Under the pieces are notes generated by a model, which saw only the letters and a list, made by a program, of their open reading frames with translations, made no database searches and was not told the origin of the DNA. Positions 4,239-10,051 of a stretch of DNA of 54,215 bases are shown piece after piece. A program made the position numbers and the translations under genes. Every line of letters starts with the position of its first letter. Position 1 is the first letter of the stretch. The DNA comes from an uncultured Reyranella sp. (GTDB taxonomy: Bacteria; Pseudomonadota; Alphaproteobacteria; Reyranellales; Reyranellaceae): positions 1 through 54,215 of the forward strand of contig CALDNT010000257.1 of the NCBI GenBank assembly GCA_937915145.1, in the 5' to 3' direction.

Positions 4239-5447
4239 ATGGCCCACGCCGTTAGCGCCCTCTACTCAAAGTTCAACCGCATGTCGCCGGCGGCGGCGGC
4301 ATTGGCGGCGCTGCTGCATGCCCTTGTGGCACTGGCGTTTCTGTGGGAATCGCCCCGGCACGAGGTCGAAACCGCCGAACACGTCATTGAGTTCACCGTC
4401 GAGCCGCTGACGCCCACCCCGGCACCGGCACAGCCCGAGGCCCCCGCAGCCCCGACGCAACCGGCCGTCCAGCCCGCCACGCAAGCGCCGGTGCCGCCGC
4501 CCAGCCCACCTTCCCGACTGGGCCTGGCACCGCCACGTTCCCTGACGCCCGACCCACGCGCCAAACCGGCGGCGCCCGAGCCCGATCAAACGCCGCCGGA
4601 GAAGCCAGCCGAGACGACGGAACCGGCCAAGCCGGAACCCGCGAAGCAGGAGCCGGCCAAACAAGAACCTGCGAGGCAGGAAGCACCGAAGCCGGAGCCT
4701 GCAAAGCAGGAGCCCGCGAAAGCAGAGCCTGAACAGCAGCAGGCCAAACAAGAACCTGTGAGGCAGGAAGCACCGAAGCCGGAGCCTGCAAAGCAGGAGC
4801 CCGCGAAAGCAGAGCCTGAACAGCAGCAGGCCGCTGCCGCCCCGCCATCGCCACCACCGCCACCGCCACCGCCGGAACCCAAGCTGGAGCAGGCCCTGCC
4901 CCCCGTGGAAGCGCCGCCGCCGCCGGTCACCGCGCGTGACCTCCCTGTCGTGGCGCTGCCACCGCCGAAAGCACCGCCACCGCCCAAGGCACCGCCGCCG
5001 AAGGCGGCGGCGCCACCCGCCCAAGCATCACAGCCGCGGCAGCTTCAATCATCGCCGCTCTCCCAGGCGCCGCAGCGGCGCGCGCCGGCTGATTCCCAGG
5101 CCGCGGCACGGCCTGCACCTTCGCCTCTGACCAATCCGGCAAGCCAATACGGTAAACGCAGATCCGAAGAGGACTATCTCTGGCGGGTTGCGCAAAAACT
5201 TTCGCAACACCAACAGTACGTCCGCAACGTGAGCACCGAGTCAGGCTCGGTCATGTTGCGGATTGTCGTCTCGCGCGACGGCCATCTGGTCGATGTCACA
5301 CTCATTCAATCCAGCGGTCTGCCGGCCCTCGACAATACCGCCATGAACCTGATCCGCCAGGCATCGCCCTATCCACCACTTCCCGCGGACATCACGGGCG
5401 CGCGACACACTTTCCTCCTGCCGCTTCAGTTCAGGCGCAACAACTAA
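4239..5447 (+). CDS. TonB-like energy transducer with long Pro/Lys/Glu linker
   Basis: This 402-residue protein has a short cytoplasmic N-terminus, one membrane anchor (about residues 17-36), a very long periplasmic linker rich in Pro, Lys, Glu and Gln (about 50-300), and a TonB C-terminal domain (about 305-402; note YLWRVAQKLSQHQQY and the VSRDGHLVDVTLIQSSG block). TonB proteins carry proton-motive energy from ExbB/ExbD to outer-membrane receptors. No exbB or exbD is present in this window. The linker contains PEPAKQEPAK-type repeats and an almost exact 87-bp tandem duplication, reported separately. A second TonB-like gene starts 27 bases downstream. Which receptor it serves is unknown. Confidence 0.82.
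   Translation: MAHAVSALYSKFNRMSPAAAALAALLHALVALAFLWESPRHEVETAEHVIEFTVEPLTPTPAPAQPEAPAAPTQPAVQPATQAPVPPPSPPSRLGLAPPRSLTPDPRAKPAAPEPDQTPPEKPAETTEPAKPEPAKQEPAKQEPARQEAPKPEPAKQEPAKAEPEQQQAKQEPVRQEAPKPEPAKQEPAKAEPEQQQAAAAPPSPPPPPPPPEPKLEQALPPVEAPPPPVTARDLPVVALPPPKAPPPPKAPPPKAAAPPAQASQPRQLQSSPLSQAPQRRAPADSQAAARPAPSPLTNPASQYGKRRSEEDYLWRVAQKLSQHQQYVRNVSTESGSVMLRIVVSRDGHLVDVTLIQSSGLPALDNTAMNLIRQASPYPPLPADITGARHTFLLPLQFRRNN
4655..4828 (+). repeat. 87-bp tandem duplication inside the first TonB-like gene
   Basis: Bases 4655-4741 and 4742-4828 are the same 87-bp unit repeated head to tail. I see a single difference, C to T (cctgcgagg versus cctgtgagg). The unit is exactly 29 codons, so the reading frame is kept and the Pro/Lys/Glu linker is lengthened by 29 residues. 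Near identity at the DNA level implies a recent duplication. Confidence 0.92.
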
Positions 5448-5474
5448 GGCGCCGGAACGTAGTAACATGGCGCT

Positions 5475-6365
5475 GTGGCCTACATCGTCCATGCCCCCAA
5501 GCCGAAATCCGACCGGATGTCGCCGACGGCGCTGGTACTGGCGCTCGCGCTGCATGGGCTAGCTGCCGCGGGGCTGTGGTGGGCATCTTCGCAACGGCCG
5601 ACCGAACCGCCGCAATACGCCATCGTGGTCACGTTCGACAGCGGTACGCCGGCTGGAAGCACCGCCTCGCAGCCGCTCGACAAGCCGGTGCCGCCAGCCA
5701 CTGCAGGCGCGCCCGATCCGGCGGCATCGGGACCGGAACAGCCCCCCGACCCGTCGCAGCGGGCCCTCACGCCAACCCAGCCGCCGCAACCCCCACAACC
5801 CGAACCCGTGCCCCAGCCAAATCTGGAGCAGGCGTTGGCCCTTCCGCAGGAGCCACCGCCTCCAACAACTCTCGACTTCCCAAAGACTTTTCCGGCGAAG
5901 GTCCGCCCGGCTCCCGCGCCGCCGCCGCGGCGCGCCCAATCGCCACCGCCGTCGCCACGACCGCCGCAAACCGCACGCGTACGGCCGCCGTCAAATGCCG
6001 CCTCAAGCGCAACGTCCGTTCCGTCGAACTCTTCGGACTGGCTTGTCGGCACGAGCCGGGCGCGTAACGCCTATCTCGACCGCGTCGCGCGGCACACCGC
6101 GCCTTACCGTCACTATCCGCGCGCCGCACTCGACAACAAGCAGGAGGGTCGCGTCGTCACCCGCGTGACGATCAGTCGTGACGGCGGGTTGATCGACGCC
6201 CGGATCGACAGATCGAGCGGCTGGCCCGCCATCGATGCCGCCGAGCTGGCGACGATACGCAAGTCGGCGCCGCTTCCACCGGTGCCCAACGACATGCCCG
6301 GCGACCCCGTGATCCTGATACTACCGATCATCTACGATCTGTCGTTCGCCGCCCGGAACCGGTAA
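5475..6365 (+). CDS. Second TonB-like protein
   Basis: A 296-residue TonB-family protein starting at GTG 5475; the only nearby ATG (5467) is in another frame. It has a membrane anchor at about residues 17-34, a proline-rich periplasmic linker (about 45-185) and a TonB C-terminal domain (about 200-290; YLDRVARHTAPYRHYP, then VTISRDGGLIDARIDRSSG). The linker is Pro/Ala/Gln-rich and lacks the Lys/Glu repeats of its neighbour, so the two are diverged paralogues. The tandem pair could serve different receptors, but nothing here says which. No ExbB/ExbD genes lie next to it. Confidence 0.78.
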   Translation: MAYIVHAPKPKSDRMSPTALVLALALHGLAAAGLWWASSQRPTEPPQYAIVVTFDSGTPAGSTASQPLDKPVPPATAGAPDPAASGPEQPPDPSQRALTPTQPPQPPQPEPVPQPNLEQALALPQEPPPPTTLDFPKTFPAKVRPAPAPPPRRAQSPPPSPRPPQTARVRPPSNAASSATSVPSNSSDWLVGTSRARNAYLDRVARHTAPYRHYPRAALDNKQEGRVVTRVTISRDGGLIDARIDRSSGWPAIDAAELATIRKSAPLPPVPNDMPGDPVILILPIIYDLSFAARNR

Positions 6366-6400
6366 CGGCGATATCGAACCGGGCACAAAGCCTCCCGATC

Positions 6401-6991
6401 TCAGGCGAAGTCCTGCGCCAGCGCATCACGTACCGCAGGCGACATCGCCGCCATGTGACCGTAGTTGGGATGGTCGAACCCCACCACGACATCGCCATCG
6501 CCGCCACGAAAGGCCGAAATCTGGGGAGGCGTGAAGCCAAAGCGCACGAACTGCACCGCCGAGGCCTTGCCATCTTCGCGCGAGCGCTCCTGGTCTCCTT
6601 CAGCCACACCGCAGATCATCGCGGTGCCGACCCGAATGAAGGCTTGCCGCTCGACGCCACCCAAAGAACCCAGCACGCGGGCACGCCGCAACGGATCGTC
6701 GATCTCGAACATGATCGTGGCAACAAGCTCGTTGCCCCGGGGGATCAGCGGATTGTAGGCCGCGAGTTCGTCGGAAAGCTGCGCCGGACCGCCCTTCTCG
6801 ATAAACAGCATTTCGTGCACCTGGTGCAGCATCGTGTCGTAGGATTCGAAATAGAACATCGCGAACGGGCCGACCTCGAGCCGGCGGTTCTTCTTGAGTT
6901 CCGCCATCCGGCGGCGGCGCTCGGCACGCAGCTTTACATATTCCGCCGGCGGCAGAATGGCATTCGGTTCGATCAGTCGTGGTGAGGTCAT
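6401..6991 (-). CDS. DUF3501 family protein
   Basis: A 196-residue soluble protein matching the pattern of DUF3501 proteins, which are regularly encoded beside rubrerythrin and a ferredoxin-like protein. The N-terminus has an EYVKLRAERRRRMAELKKNRR segment, followed by FAMFYFES and HEMLFIEKGG blocks. No catalytic motif can be named. Its ATG overlaps the stop of the upstream Fe-S gene (ATGA at 6988-6991), implying translational coupling as the third gene of rbr–FeS–DUF3501. A role in peroxide or iron stress is inferred from this context only. Confidence 0.75.
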   Translation of the reverse strand: MTSPRLIEPNAILPPAEYVKLRAERRRRMAELKKNRRLEVGPFAMFYFESYDTMLHQVHEMLFIEKGGPAQLSDELAAYNPLIPRGNELVATIMFEIDDPLRRARVLGSLGGVERQAFIRVGTAMICGVAEGDQERSREDGKASAVQFVRFGFTPPQISAFRGGDGDVVVGFDHPNYGHMAAMSPAVRDALAQDFA

Positions 6992-8346
6992 TGGTCCTGC
7001 CCGATCAATCCATAGGCACGCGCCAAGAGCTCGATCGGATGGTTGGCGCGTGAAGGTTTGGGCCTGGTTTCGCCCGCAGTCATCTCCATCACCTGCATCA
7101 GGTGATCGGCGGCAAGCGGACACTCGGAGGCGACGTAGCTGGTGTCGTTCCTGAGCGCCGCCTGGGCGGCAGGCTTGCCGACCTTCACCGCCGTCTCGAA
7201 GTGCTCTGTCCGCGCGCCCCAGATGCCGCCATGGCCGCTGCAGCGTTCGATCACCGCGACCCGCGTATCCGGCACCAGCCGCAACATTTCGGCGGCCTTG
7301 GCGCCCATGTTCTGGGCGCGGGCGTGACAGGCCAGATGGATGGTGACGCCGCCTTCGATCGGCTCCAGCCCGGGAGCCAGCCCGTGCTTCTTGGCGATGT
7401 CGACCACATACTCCGAGAGGTCGAATGTCGCCTGCGACAGACGTTCCACGCCAGGCTCCTTGGGCAGGAGCAGCGGCCATTCGAATTTCAGCATCAGGGC
7501 GCAGGACGGCGTCAGCGCGATCACGTCATAGCCCTTGTCGATCCACGGCAGTAGCGCAGCCGACACCGTCTTTGCCGCCGCCGCCGTGCCTTCGAGATCG
7601 CCCAGTTCGAGTTTCGGCATGCCGCAGCAGGCGGGATGGACGACTTCGGTTTCGACGCCGTTCCTGGCCAGGACGGCACGGGCGGCCGCACCGATGCCGG
7701 TGTTGTTGAAGTTCACGAAGCAGGTGGCGTAGAGCACCGCCTTGCGCTTGCCGAAGGCCGGCGCCGCCTGATTGAGCGCCGTGCCCTCGCGCGCCGCCCG
7801 GATCTCGAAGGTCTCACCGGCATAACGCGGCAGGCGGGCGCCATGATGAATCCCGGCCAGCCGCTCCATGCCTTTTCGCGTGAGTGTATTGGACTCTTCG
7901 GAGGTCCAGTTGGCGAGGCCCGAAACGAAGGTGCCGAGCCGTCCGATGCGATCGGTATCGGCGAGCTGGCGCGAGACGAAATCGACGCCGGTCTTGCGCG
8001 CCCGCACGGCGCGATGGCGCAGCATGAGATGCGGGAAATCGAGCGCCCACTCGTGCGGCGGCACGTAGGGACACTTGGTCATAAAACACATGTCGCAGAG
8101 CGTGCAGGCCTCTTCGATCTGGGCGTAGTCGGCCTTCTTGACGCCGTCGAGTTCGCCGGTCGGACCGTTGTCGATCAGATCGAACAGCCGCGGGAACGAG
8201 TCGCACAAATTGAAGCACCGGCGGCAGCCGTGGCAGATATCAAAAACACGCTCCATCTCCTTCTCGAGCGCCTGTTCGTCCCAGAACCAGGGATTCTGCC
8301 AATCCAGGGCATGTCGGGTGGGGGCGTCGAGGCTGCCTTCGCGCAT
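6988..8346 (-). CDS. GlpC/HdrD-like double 4Fe-4S oxidoreductase subunit
   Basis: A 452-residue iron-sulfur protein. Two ferredoxin-type CX2CX2CX3C clusters are visible, at Cys38/41/44/48 and Cys81/84/87/92. Downstream lie two cysteine-rich CCG-type regions (CCGMPKLE, and a later HLACHARAQNMG...ERCSGHGGIWG segment), the layout of GlpC, the glycolate oxidase iron-sulfur subunit and heterodisulfide reductase subunits. It may pass electrons between a cytoplasmic donor and rubrerythrin, since the rubrerythrin beside it lacks its own rubredoxin domain; that role is inference. The frame is open further upstream, but the sequence before MREGSL crosses a terminator hairpin and looks non-coding, so ATG 8346 is chosen. 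No strong ribosome site is seen. Confidence 0.8.
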   Translation of the reverse strand: MREGSLDAPTRHALDWQNPWFWDEQALEKEMERVFDICHGCRRCFNLCDSFPRLFDLIDNGPTGELDGVKKADYAQIEEACTLCDMCFMTKCPYVPPHEWALDFPHLMLRHRAVRARKTGVDFVSRQLADTDRIGRLGTFVSGLANWTSEESNTLTRKGMERLAGIHHGARLPRYAGETFEIRAAREGTALNQAAPAFGKRKAVLYATCFVNFNNTGIGAAARAVLARNGVETEVVHPACCGMPKLELGDLEGTAAAAKTVSAALLPWIDKGYDVIALTPSCALMLKFEWPLLLPKEPGVERLSQATFDLSEYVVDIAKKHGLAPGLEPIEGGVTIHLACHARAQNMGAKAAEMLRLVPDTRVAVIERCSGHGGIWGARTEHFETAVKVGKPAAQAALRNDTSYVASECPLAADHLMQVMEMTAGETRPKPSRANHPIELLARAYGLIGQDQ

Positions 8347-8387
8347 GATCGATTCGTTTCGCTGCGGACTGAGGAACTGGGAAGAAA

Positions 8388-8413
8388 AAGGGGACCCTTT
8401 TGGGGGTCCCCTT
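8388..8413 (-). terminator. Rho-independent terminator/attenuator after rubrerythrin
   Basis: A perfect 10-bp stem (8388-8397 with 8404-8413) with a 6-nt loop is followed on the minus strand by TTTTTCTT. It lies between the rubrerythrin stop and the Fe-S gene start. It probably ends most transcripts after rubrerythrin and lowers expression of the two downstream genes. Confidence 0.85.
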
Positions 8414-8431
8414 CGATTAAGCCCGAAGGGC

Positions 8432-8851
8432 TCAGGCCATCGTGTCGAGAGCTTTCTGGAAACGGCCGGCGTGGCTCTTTTCCGCCTTGGCCAAGGTCTC
8501 GAACCAGTCGGCGATTTCGGCCATGCCCTCTTCGCGGGCCGTGCGCGCCATGCCCGGATACATGTCGGTGTATTCGTGGGTCTCGCCGGCAATCGCCGCC
8601 TTCAGGTTCGACGTGGTCGCGCCGATCGGCAGTCCGGTCGCCGGATCGCCCACCGTCTCGAGGAACTCGAGATGGCCGTGTGCATGGCCGGTCTCGCCTT
8701 CAGCCGTCGAACGGAAGACGGCGGCGACATCGTTGTAGCCTTCGACGTCCGCCTTCTGGGCAAAATACAGATACCGGCGATTGGCCTGGCTCTCGCCGGC
8801 GAAAGCCGCCTTCAGATTTTCCTCGGTCTTGGATCCCTTGAGATTCGCCAT
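8432..8851 (-). CDS. Rubrerythrin (ferritin-like domain only)
   Basis: A 139-residue four-helix di-iron protein of the rubrerythrin family, expected to reduce hydrogen peroxide in the cytoplasm. The helices carry the usual carboxylate/histidine ligands: [12 protein letters not shown] near residue 19, [12 protein letters not shown] near 50, [11 protein letters not shown] near 90 and [11 protein letters not shown] near 125. The C-terminal rubredoxin domain of classical rubrerythrin is absent, so electrons must come from another protein. ATG 8851 is preceded by GGGAGAGTGACC; a GTG two codons upstream would overlap that ribosome site. A promoter and an ICE box lie upstream, pointing to iron-responsive control by Irr. 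Confidence 0.88.
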
Positions 8852-8897
8852 GGTCACTCTCCCGCTTTGATCGGCCCATCCGCCGATCCACGCTCAA

Positions 8898-8926
8898 GAT
8901 TTAGGACGCGTTGGCAGAAGCGTCAA
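8898..8926 (-). promoter_or_regulatory. Candidate sigma-70 promoter of rubrerythrin
   Basis: On the minus strand TTGACG (8921-8926) and TAAATC (8898-8903) are separated by exactly 17 bases. The ICE palindrome begins four bases upstream of the -35 element. Confidence 0.6.
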
Positions 8927-8930
8927 GGAG

Positions 8931-8947
8931 TTTAGAATTATTCTAAA
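8931..8947. promoter_or_regulatory. Iron control element (ICE), Irr operator
   Basis: TTTAGAATTATTCTAAA is a perfect match to the ICE consensus TTTAGAA-N3-TTCTAAA described for Irr in Bradyrhizobium and Brucella. It lies between irr and the rubrerythrin gene, touching the rubrerythrin promoter. It also resembles a PerR box (7-1-7), but the neighbouring regulator is Irr-like. Confidence 0.85.
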
Positions 8948-8976
8948 CACTGCAAGCGATTCGCAACGCTCAAGTG

Positions 8977-9396
8977 TTAACGCCGCACCCGCACGATGAC
9001 ATCGACCCGCGCGAGGCGGGTTCCCTTGGGCGGCGCCGGCAGTCCGGCGATCGTCACCTTGTCGGACGGAAAATCGTGCAGTTCGCCGTCGGGCTCGATG
9101 AAGAAATGGTGGTGATGGCCGATATTGGTATCGAAGTAGGACCGGCCGGGAGCGACCACCACTTCGCACAGCAACCCGGCATCGCGGAACTGATTCAGGC
9201 TGTTGTAGACCGTGGCCAGGGACACCGGCATCCGCGACGCCTTGACCTCGGCATGTAGCGCCTCCGCCGTGACATGGCGATGGCCGCCGGCAAAAAGCAG
9301 GCGCGCCAATGCGACCCTCTGCCGAGTAGGGCGAAGGCCGGCCGCGCGCAGGCGGGCGGAAAAATCGAGACTGGTGCCGGGCATTGTCGAGGCCAT
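8977..9396 (-). CDS. irr: Irr, Fur-family iron/haem response regulator
   Basis: A 139-residue Fur-superfamily regulator. The N-terminal winged helix contains RLRAAGLRPTRQRVALARLLF and MPVSLATVYNSLNQF, and the dimerisation part contains YFDTN followed by a histidine cluster (HHHHFF) typical of Irr. Irr acts when iron is short: it binds ICE boxes and represses or activates iron and haem genes, and it is degraded or inactivated with haem. Location beside fabA-fabB-fabI is the same as in Bradyrhizobium and Brucella, which supports the name. ATG 9396 gives family length; a GTG at 9417 and an ATG at 9384 are alternatives. It is divergent from fabA. Confidence 0.88.
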   Translation of the reverse strand: MASTMPGTSLDFSARLRAAGLRPTRQRVALARLLFAGGHRHVTAEALHAEVKASRMPVSLATVYNSLNQFRDAGLLCEVVVAPGRSYFDTNIGHHHHFFIEPDGELHDFPSDKVTIAGLPAPPKGTRLARVDVIVRVRR

Positions 9397-9520
9397 ATGT
9401 AAGGAGTGCCAACGCACATGGAAAGGGCTCCGCGGCCCGATTCGTCGGTTTGCGCTGGGACGCCGGCATCCCTATTCTGCCGGCGATCCCTGATATCGGG
9501 TGGCTACGGGACGGTGAACG

Positions 9521-10051
9521 GTGAGCGAGCAGAAGGACAGTTACACTTTCGAGGATCTGATCGAATGCGCCAAGGGCCACCTGTTCGGTCCCGGGAACGC
9601 GCAGCTGCCGTTGCCTCCGATGCTGATGCTCGACCGCATCGTGAAGATCAACGATACAGGCGGCCAGTTTGGCAAGGGTGAGATCGTGGCGGAATTCGAC
9701 ATCAAGCCGGACCTCTGGTTCTTCGACTGCCATTTCAAGGGCGATCCGGTGATGCCGGGATGCCTGCCCCTCGATGCCCTGTGGCAGGCTCTCGGGTTTT
9801 TCCTCGGCTGGATGAAGGCGCCGGGTCGCGGCCGGGCGCTGGGCGTGGGCGAGGTCAAGTTCACCGGCATGGTGGTGCCGACGGTGCGCAAGCTGACCTA
9901 TCACGTTCATCTCAAGCGCGTGATGCTGCGCAAGCTCGTGCTCGGCATCGCCGACGGCGTCGTTCATGCCGACGGCAAGCAGATATACGAGGTGAGCGGC
10001 CTCAAGGTCGGGCTGTTCCAGGACGCGGCACCCGCCGCGGCCGCGGGCTGA
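9521..10051 (+). CDS. fabA: 3-hydroxydecanoyl-ACP dehydratase/isomerase FabA
   Basis: A 176-residue hot-dog-fold enzyme that dehydrates 3-hydroxydecanoyl-ACP and isomerises the product to cis-3-decenoyl-ACP, the branch point of anaerobic unsaturated fatty acid synthesis. The active-site His71 (in [14 protein letters not shown]) and Asp85 (in CLPLDALW) correspond to E. coli His70 and Asp84. Start is GTG 9521, giving normal length; no in-frame ATG precedes it. It is the first gene of fabA-fabB-fabI, with fabB starting one base after its stop. Confidence 0.96.

Follow-up and report, generated by a model that had tools for sequence, protein, structure and literature searches.

A predicted Irr operator at the promoter of an aerobic-type rubrerythrin module, and its probable place in a peroxide-defence regulon of Reyranella

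Introduction

Most of what is known of Irr comes from rhizobia, where it responds to haem status and governs a broad iron regulon; the haem regulatory motif linked to haem-triggered degradation has a Cys-Pro form. The PerR regulons of Bacillus, Campylobacter and Leptospira resemble that of Reyranella Irr, described below, in their target classes, and the two regulators are alike in their metal-site residues; the Reyranella protein, in contrast, scores as Irr with NCBIfam models, and its operator is of the ICE type.

In R. sphaeroides, ICE boxes are few and both lie at oxidative-defence genes, as they do in Reyranella; Irr binds mbfA and ccpA, and an irr mutant resists H2O2 (PMC3413700). The targets include a rubrerythrin-like protein and a peroxidase, which is a further likeness to Reyranella, and the distance from the box to the ccpA start is ∼40 nt (PMC3413700), the geometry found at Reyranella rbr. 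The two systems differ in that the R. sphaeroides targets are a membrane-bound ferritin and a cytochrome c peroxidase (PMC3413700) whereas Reyranella rbr is of the soluble aerobic type, and in that R. sphaeroides katE has no box and is not bound by Irr (PMC3413700), whereas Reyranella katG and katA have boxes. The B. japonicum Irr regulon (bfr, mbfA) shares the ICE consensus and has the rubrerythrin-like blr7895 among its targets. Twenty-three sites are predicted in that organism (quoted in PMC3413700), in contrast to two strong ones, both at peroxide-defence genes, in the Reyranella genome studied here. B. japonicum Irr is degraded on exposure to H2O2, and its high-affinity targets are the most derepressed at elevated iron or H2O2 (PMC4902296). 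That rubrerythrin-like and peroxidase genes can carry Irr boxes is already known.

The aerobic RBR-RFO-DUF3501 system (PMC5114695, PMC7050145) consists of the same three adjoining genes as the locus described here, where the rubrerythrin likewise lacks a rubredoxin domain. In eukaryotes, RFO and DUF3501 are reportedly mitochondrial and derived from alphaproteobacteria (PMC7050145). The text of PMC5114695 contains neither "Irr" nor "PerR" nor "regulator", and regulation of the module is not treated there. We found no literature description of Irr control of the aerobic rubrerythrin module, part of which computational work of 2006 may predict, nor of a near-pure peroxide Irr regulon, for which an earlier computational prediction of 2006 is possible.

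Results

The window, by which we mean the whole stretch of 54,215 bases that was analysed, belongs to a Reyranella draft genome of 4.77 Mb that is 98% complete. The features of the locus are as follows, in the order in which they are read on the minus strand.

8977..9384, minus strand: irr, above the cut-offs of the NCBIfam models IrrA and Irr; a longer GTG start at 9417 is possible
8950..8966, minus strand: inverted repeat of Fur type (7-1-7), TTGCGAATCGCTTGCAG, separated from the downstream ICE box by 2 bp
8931..8947, minus strand: ICE or Irr box, a perfect palindrome (TTTAGAATAATTCTAAA on the coding strand), predicted operator
8921..8926, minus strand: -35 element TTGACG, 4 bp after the ICE box
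8898..8904, minus strand: -10 element CTAAAT or TAAATC (the latter at 8903-8898), spacer 16 or 17
8432..8851, minus strand: rbr, aerobic-type rubrerythrin of 139 aa without rubredoxin domain (PF02915, E 1.6e-30)
8381..8414, minus strand: hairpin with T-run in the gap between rbr and RFO; 60 nt comprising two hairpins fold at -30.6 kcal/mol
6988..8346, minus strand: RFO, named after PMC5114695; PF02754 over cut-off, GlpC models below
6401..6991, minus strand: DUF3501 gene (PF12007, E 5.6e-51 for 6404-6988), its ATG overlapping the RFO stop

The sequence TTTAGAATTATTCTAAA at 8931-8947 has no mismatch to TTTAGAA-N3-TTCTAAA and is the only ICE match at up to three mismatches in the window. On the coding (minus) strand the irr stop is followed by the Fur-type repeat (8966-8950), 2 bp, the ICE box, CTCC and TTGACG, and then by 17 bp, TAAATC, an SD and the rbr ATG at 8851. 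The first-pass annotation had described a perfect ICE box touching the rubrerythrin promoter with irr next door, and this description is borne out: TTGACG begins 4 bp past the box, and the product of irr (8980-9384, minus strand) exceeds the NCBIfam IrrA and Irr cut-offs. Because irr and rbr share one strand, the layout can be drawn more closely, with the box inside the 126-nt gap from the irr stop to rbr. In 27 aligned Reyranella rbr promoters the -35 element is kept, the box being followed by 4 bp (5 in one case) and TTGAC. As to the TTGACG-17-TAAATC promoter that had been proposed, the -35 half stands, and for the -10 element kept across the genus CTAAAT/CAATAT/CAAAAT is the better rendering. 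The annotation had passed over the Fur-type box 2 bp away, the katG target elsewhere in the genome and the rubredoxin-less aerobic type of the rubrerythrin. The rbr promoter is absent from the output of a generic promoter scan, which over 6300-9700 gave three other promoters, one of them on the opposite strand and overlapping the ICE box. For irr itself no ICE box was found, the best match in the irr/fabA gap having seven mismatches.

Could the palindrome be a chance match? At up to three mismatches 0.11 matches are expected in the window, and 11 of 100 window shuffles gave one, which is in favor of coincidence. The box has no mismatch at all, however, and both Reyranella and other families retain it at a near-fixed distance from the -35 element, so that coincidence has a negligible probability.

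The proposed genome scan for the motif yields two sites at up to two mismatches, located at rbr (no mismatch) and katG (one mismatch, between katG and a divergent lutA-like gene with a CCG domain); there is none at exactly two mismatches and six are found at three. The six three-mismatch sites lie in or beside open reading frames not recognised as iron or peroxide genes. We discounted them as targets for this reason and because such sites are fewer than in the control: at up to three mismatches the genome has 8 ICE sites versus 17 for the reversed pattern.

Extending the scan to 37 Reyranella genomes (that of the window and 36 relatives) gave 61 ICE sites at up to one mismatch, versus 2 for the reversed pattern. 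The surroundings of all 61 were examined, sites being assigned by tblastn and start position; one locus, L077, duplicates another, L034. The sites are located at rbr (28), katG (23), ahpC (5), katA (3), a dps-like gene (1) and lutA alone (1); the rbr count consists of 27 assigned by script and one (L061) where the contig ends inside rbr but the start is readable. Thus, 60 of the 61 predicted sites are at peroxide-defence genes, and haem-synthesis, iron-uptake or Fe-S assembly genes are not represented among them. One example of each target family was checked: KatG exceeds its NCBIfam cut-off, and the Pfam cut-offs were passed for catalase (PF00199), AhpC-TSA (PF00578), AhpD-type CMD (PF02627) and ferritin-like proteins (PF00210), the label "Dps" standing for PF00210 together with our own reading. 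Such near-identical sites, almost only at peroxide-defence genes, suggest a role of Irr in this genus that is closer to the control of peroxide defence than to general iron regulation.

The palindrome is present at up to two mismatches in every Reyranella rbr promoter examined (34 of 34). At up to one mismatch it is present in 28 of the 37 genomes, and six further genomes have an rbr with a two-mismatch box, the TTGACG and a version of the adjacent repeat being retained. These six boxes are altered symmetrically, to CTTAGAA..TTCTAAG in five and to ATTAGAA..TTCTAAT in one. When rbr was sought in eight of the nine genomes lacking a box at up to one mismatch (G020 lay outside the search), G006 gave none and G017 a fragment.

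A single box is shared with lutA at 6 of the 23 katG sites and at 1 of the 3 katA sites; the window genome (L003, 5309-8455) and five others have the shared katG arrangement. The sole site at lutA alone (G011, L018, ∼1200-1520) faces a frame that, by reading, starts like a catalase and then breaks off; on this reading the operator seems to have outlived its catalase gene.

Position relative to the promoter bears on whether Irr represses or activates. At 15 of the 23 katG sites TTG directly precedes the box, and in 13 of these, the window genome included, a TATA-like stretch follows. At such sites the box would fill the -35/-10 spacer of katG, which is a repressor's place, although this geometry is not general since 8 of the 23 sites have no TTG before the box. 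The rbr box, in contrast, is fixed 3-5 bp upstream of the -35 element, and a box in that position could activate rather than repress. Irr might accordingly activate rbr from an upstream site while repressing katG from an overlapping one, replacing a haem catalase by a haem-free peroxidase at low haem. Where the box lies is indeed reported to determine whether Irr activates or represses (PMC7762939), and in the Irr-bearing Ca. Pelagibacter rbr rises 1.57-fold on iron limitation (P 0.025; PMC2864753), which runs opposite to repression by iron-free Irr and counts against it. The swap is spoiled, though, by the haem catalase gene katA, whose box lies 4 bp before TTGACA in L072 and L077, an arrangement like that of rbr (in L029 it is katG-like). 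Moreover, R. sphaeroides ccpA, of similar geometry, is slightly higher, not lower, in an irr mutant under iron limitation (PMC3413700). We therefore consider activation of rbr coupled to repression of katG rather unlikely. These ccpA data and the H2O2 resistance of that mutant, together with the degradation of Irr on H2O2 exposure and the derepression at elevated iron or H2O2 in B. japonicum, make repression by Irr the most likely mode, by analogy. A 2.1-fold lower level of M. gryphiswaldense rbr in anoxic cells (PMC9549626) decides nothing here, nor do PMC6532209 and PMC10294975.

The arrangement was also followed beyond the genus. Of 289 genomes sampled from the class, 177 have Irr (E ≤1e-15). 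From these we took 70 irr loci, 30 of them the best-scoring and 40 picked by hand from the list. A colinear rbr lies within 700 nt of irr in 56 of them and at a distance of 1,375 nt in one; it was not found at the other 13, where some flanks measured 1.5 kb or were ended by the contig. In the 56 irr-rbr gaps an ICE box is found at 0, ≤1, ≤2 and ≤3 mismatches in 5, 16, 33 and 42 cases, compared with 0, 0, 0 and 2 for the reversed pattern, and is missing at ≤3 mismatches in 14. The 33 gaps at ≤2 mismatches span 25 families by label count, that of Reyranella included. Among the best 80 irr loci of named organisms, 11 of which (L200-L210) are from Reyranella or near relatives, a colinear rbr was seen in 49 and none in 31, some of these stretches being short. 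The box is present at ≤2 mismatches in 36 of the 49 gaps (reversed pattern, 1 of 49), and TTGA(C/T) starts 3-5 bp past it in 37 of the 40 loci with ≤3 mismatches. Both sets favour close relatives, and the site counts are not independent because the genomes are related.

Ten of 14 chosen Irr-bearing genomes from other genera have sites at ≤1 mismatch, 11 in all versus 2 for the reversed pattern, and these are located in the irr-rbr gap (7), at katG (1), at dps-like genes (2) and at a DUF2061 gene (1). The last of these, in a genome of another family (G076), is a perfect ICE box followed by TTGACG before a DUF2061 membrane-protein gene (PF09834; L197, 1501-1517), a possible further Irr target. 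In 24 out-of-genus genomes the count of ICE against reversed-pattern sites was set aside as uninformative, AT-rich genomes dominating both. Fourteen loci from these genomes were inspected: six lie at ahpC, a dps-like gene, katG (2), irr-rbr and 3′ of irr, all in Irr-bearing genomes, and the other eight, six of them from Irr-less genomes, matched no query protein. Conversely, in five genomes that have an rbr relative but no Irr at E ≤1e-15, no box at ≤2 mismatches is present within 300 nt upstream of that gene (best matches 3, 5, 5, 5 and 5 mismatches), a small test since only two of the five rbr genes are close (84 and 81% identity; the others 49-58%). Since the site is conserved, the irr-box-rbr order recurs and the box is missing in all five Irr-less genomes, Irr very probably binds 8931-8947, as judged from sequence.

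Window Irr scores 196 bits with the curated NCBIfam model IrrA (cut-off 150) and 181 with Irr (cut-off 170), versus 66.6 with PerRB (250) and 54 with PerRA (200). In an alignment of 22 Irr proteins hand-picked from 20 families, H37, N61, D85, H91, H93 and D104 are invariant. The sequence contains a PerR-type His/Asp site (H37, D85, H91, H93, D104), whose positions bear the same numbers as the metal ligands of B. subtilis PerR. It also contains a putative haem-binding HxH motif (H91-x-H93, within HHHH). A Cys-Pro motif of the B. japonicum type is not present in window Irr, which has a single Cys (C73), so the haem-triggered degradation route cannot be assumed for it. An Asp at the switch position sets PerR and Irr apart from Fur, Zur and Mur; Asp103 and an Asn of the DNA helix are common to PerR and Irr, and many effectors are regulated by both (PMC8638967). 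As the Asp rule also holds for Irr, it does not separate Irr from PerR. An AF2 model (pLDDT 91.4) has the Fur/PerR fold and matches Fur and Leptospira PerR about equally, so that the predicted fold does not decide either.

OxyR was considered as a peroxide regulator and not retained: model NF008361 has no match over cut-off in 38 genomes, the best of the window genome reaching 116 bits (cut-off 329). Matches of 213-250 bits occur in 7 of 24 Reyranella genomes searched; for these bacteria that threshold is perhaps too stringent, and relatives could have OxyR-like proteins.

In the 27 aligned Reyranella rbr promoters a conserved block lies 4-18 bp before the ICE box, with the consensus TTGCGAATCGTTTGCA by column counts, a 7-1-7 inverted repeat. 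A form of this repeat is also present upstream of the ICE box at five ahpC loci (L037, L053, L059, L063, L075). The exact sequence TGCRAAYNRTTYGCA, from which the window copy differs by one mismatch, occurs at 14 sites in 13 Reyranella genomes, and the reversed pattern at none. The sites are distributed as follows.

Fe(III)-binding-protein-like genes (4 sites): L093 (window genome), L179, L181, L183
ECF sigma genes (3 sites): L180, L187, L188
rbr (1 site)
no evident iron link nearby (6 sites): L096 (window genome), L182, L184, L185, L186, L189

The L093 product matches solved iron-binding proteins (E down to 1e-103); the NCBIfam models gave it no name, the best being below cut-off. With moderate confidence we regard the 7-1-7 repeat as a Fur box, which would bring two Fur-family proteins together at the rbr promoter.

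The window genome has three Fur-family proteins: Irr and two that score best as Fur (C305) and Zur (C59), both below cut-off. One of the latter might therefore read the ICE box, with Irr a mere neighbour. The box, however, tracks Irr, as seen from its absence in the Irr-less genomes with an rbr relative and from the six out-of-genus sites at peroxide or irr genes, all in genomes with Irr; a different, Fur-type motif lies at some putative iron-uptake genes, and the sequence of the box is the published ICE consensus. Another reader is hence most improbable.

Discussion

We consider it probable that the ICE palindrome is the Irr operator of the aerobic rbr module, acting in repression within a peroxide-defence regulon that would comprise rbr, katG, katA, ahpC and a dps-like gene. 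The site, its conservation, the set of genes it precedes, its co-occurrence with Irr and the residues of Irr are observations, whereas the binder, the repression and the releasing signal are inferred. An Irr dimer would most likely be bound, holding transcription down, when iron or haem is scarce and peroxide is low, and it would be released when haem or iron rises or when peroxide inactivates Irr. The adjacent Fur-type box would give rbr a second iron input.

The first-pass annotation had predicted that cellular iron or haem, rather than PerR or OxyR, switches this peroxide system. Its placing of an Irr operator at the rbr promoter is upheld by the 34 of 34 Reyranella promoters, by 33 of the 56 gaps in the class and by the lack of a box in the five Irr-less genomes. 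The opposition to PerR or OxyR is not upheld as worded, given the PerR-like target set, the PerR-type ligands with Asp104 and the Fur-type box nearby. With such a target set and such ligands, and with no Cys-Pro motif, peroxide sensing by Irr is, from its sequence, at least as plausible as iron sensing. AhpC needs no metal, and its presence among the targets would fit a peroxide logic better than iron-sparing. Taken further, Irr of Reyranella, and perhaps of the ancestral alphaproteobacterium, could be the equivalent of PerR and not a regulator of iron homeostasis: it would sense peroxide through its His/Asp metal site and repress catalases, AhpC, Dps and the aerobic rubrerythrin module, the rhizobial iron/haem regulon being a later expansion; we put this forward tentatively, as the less probable course.

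In Reyranella the strongest predicted Irr boxes outline a regulon devoted almost wholly to peroxide defence, and across many alphaproteobacterial families one operator is found again and again before the aerobic rubrerythrin module. This hints at an earlier role of Irr, prior to iron regulation, points to a candidate regulator for the RBR-RFO-DUF3501 module, and provides a simple test case for whether Irr senses haem, iron or peroxide.

Within the module, a rubredoxin-less RBR adjoins RFO and the DUF3501 gene, as in aerobic-type systems, and this gene order recurs at many other loci. Compared with PDB entries, Rbr matches the rubrerythrins 9onm and 4di0 (E 3e-73) and then sulerythrin (E 2.5e-52); with the classical rubrerythrin model NF045767 it scores 138.7 bits, below the cut-off of 200. 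The hairpin after rbr is not among the results of a terminator scan. With its T-run it is likely to be a partial terminator that sets rbr above RFO and DUF3501, and the operator that would control rbr would then probably reach the two downstream genes in part by read-through. Two adjacent proline-rich proteins, whose C-termini look TonB-like by reading, are encoded past DUF3501 on the other strand (4239-6365).
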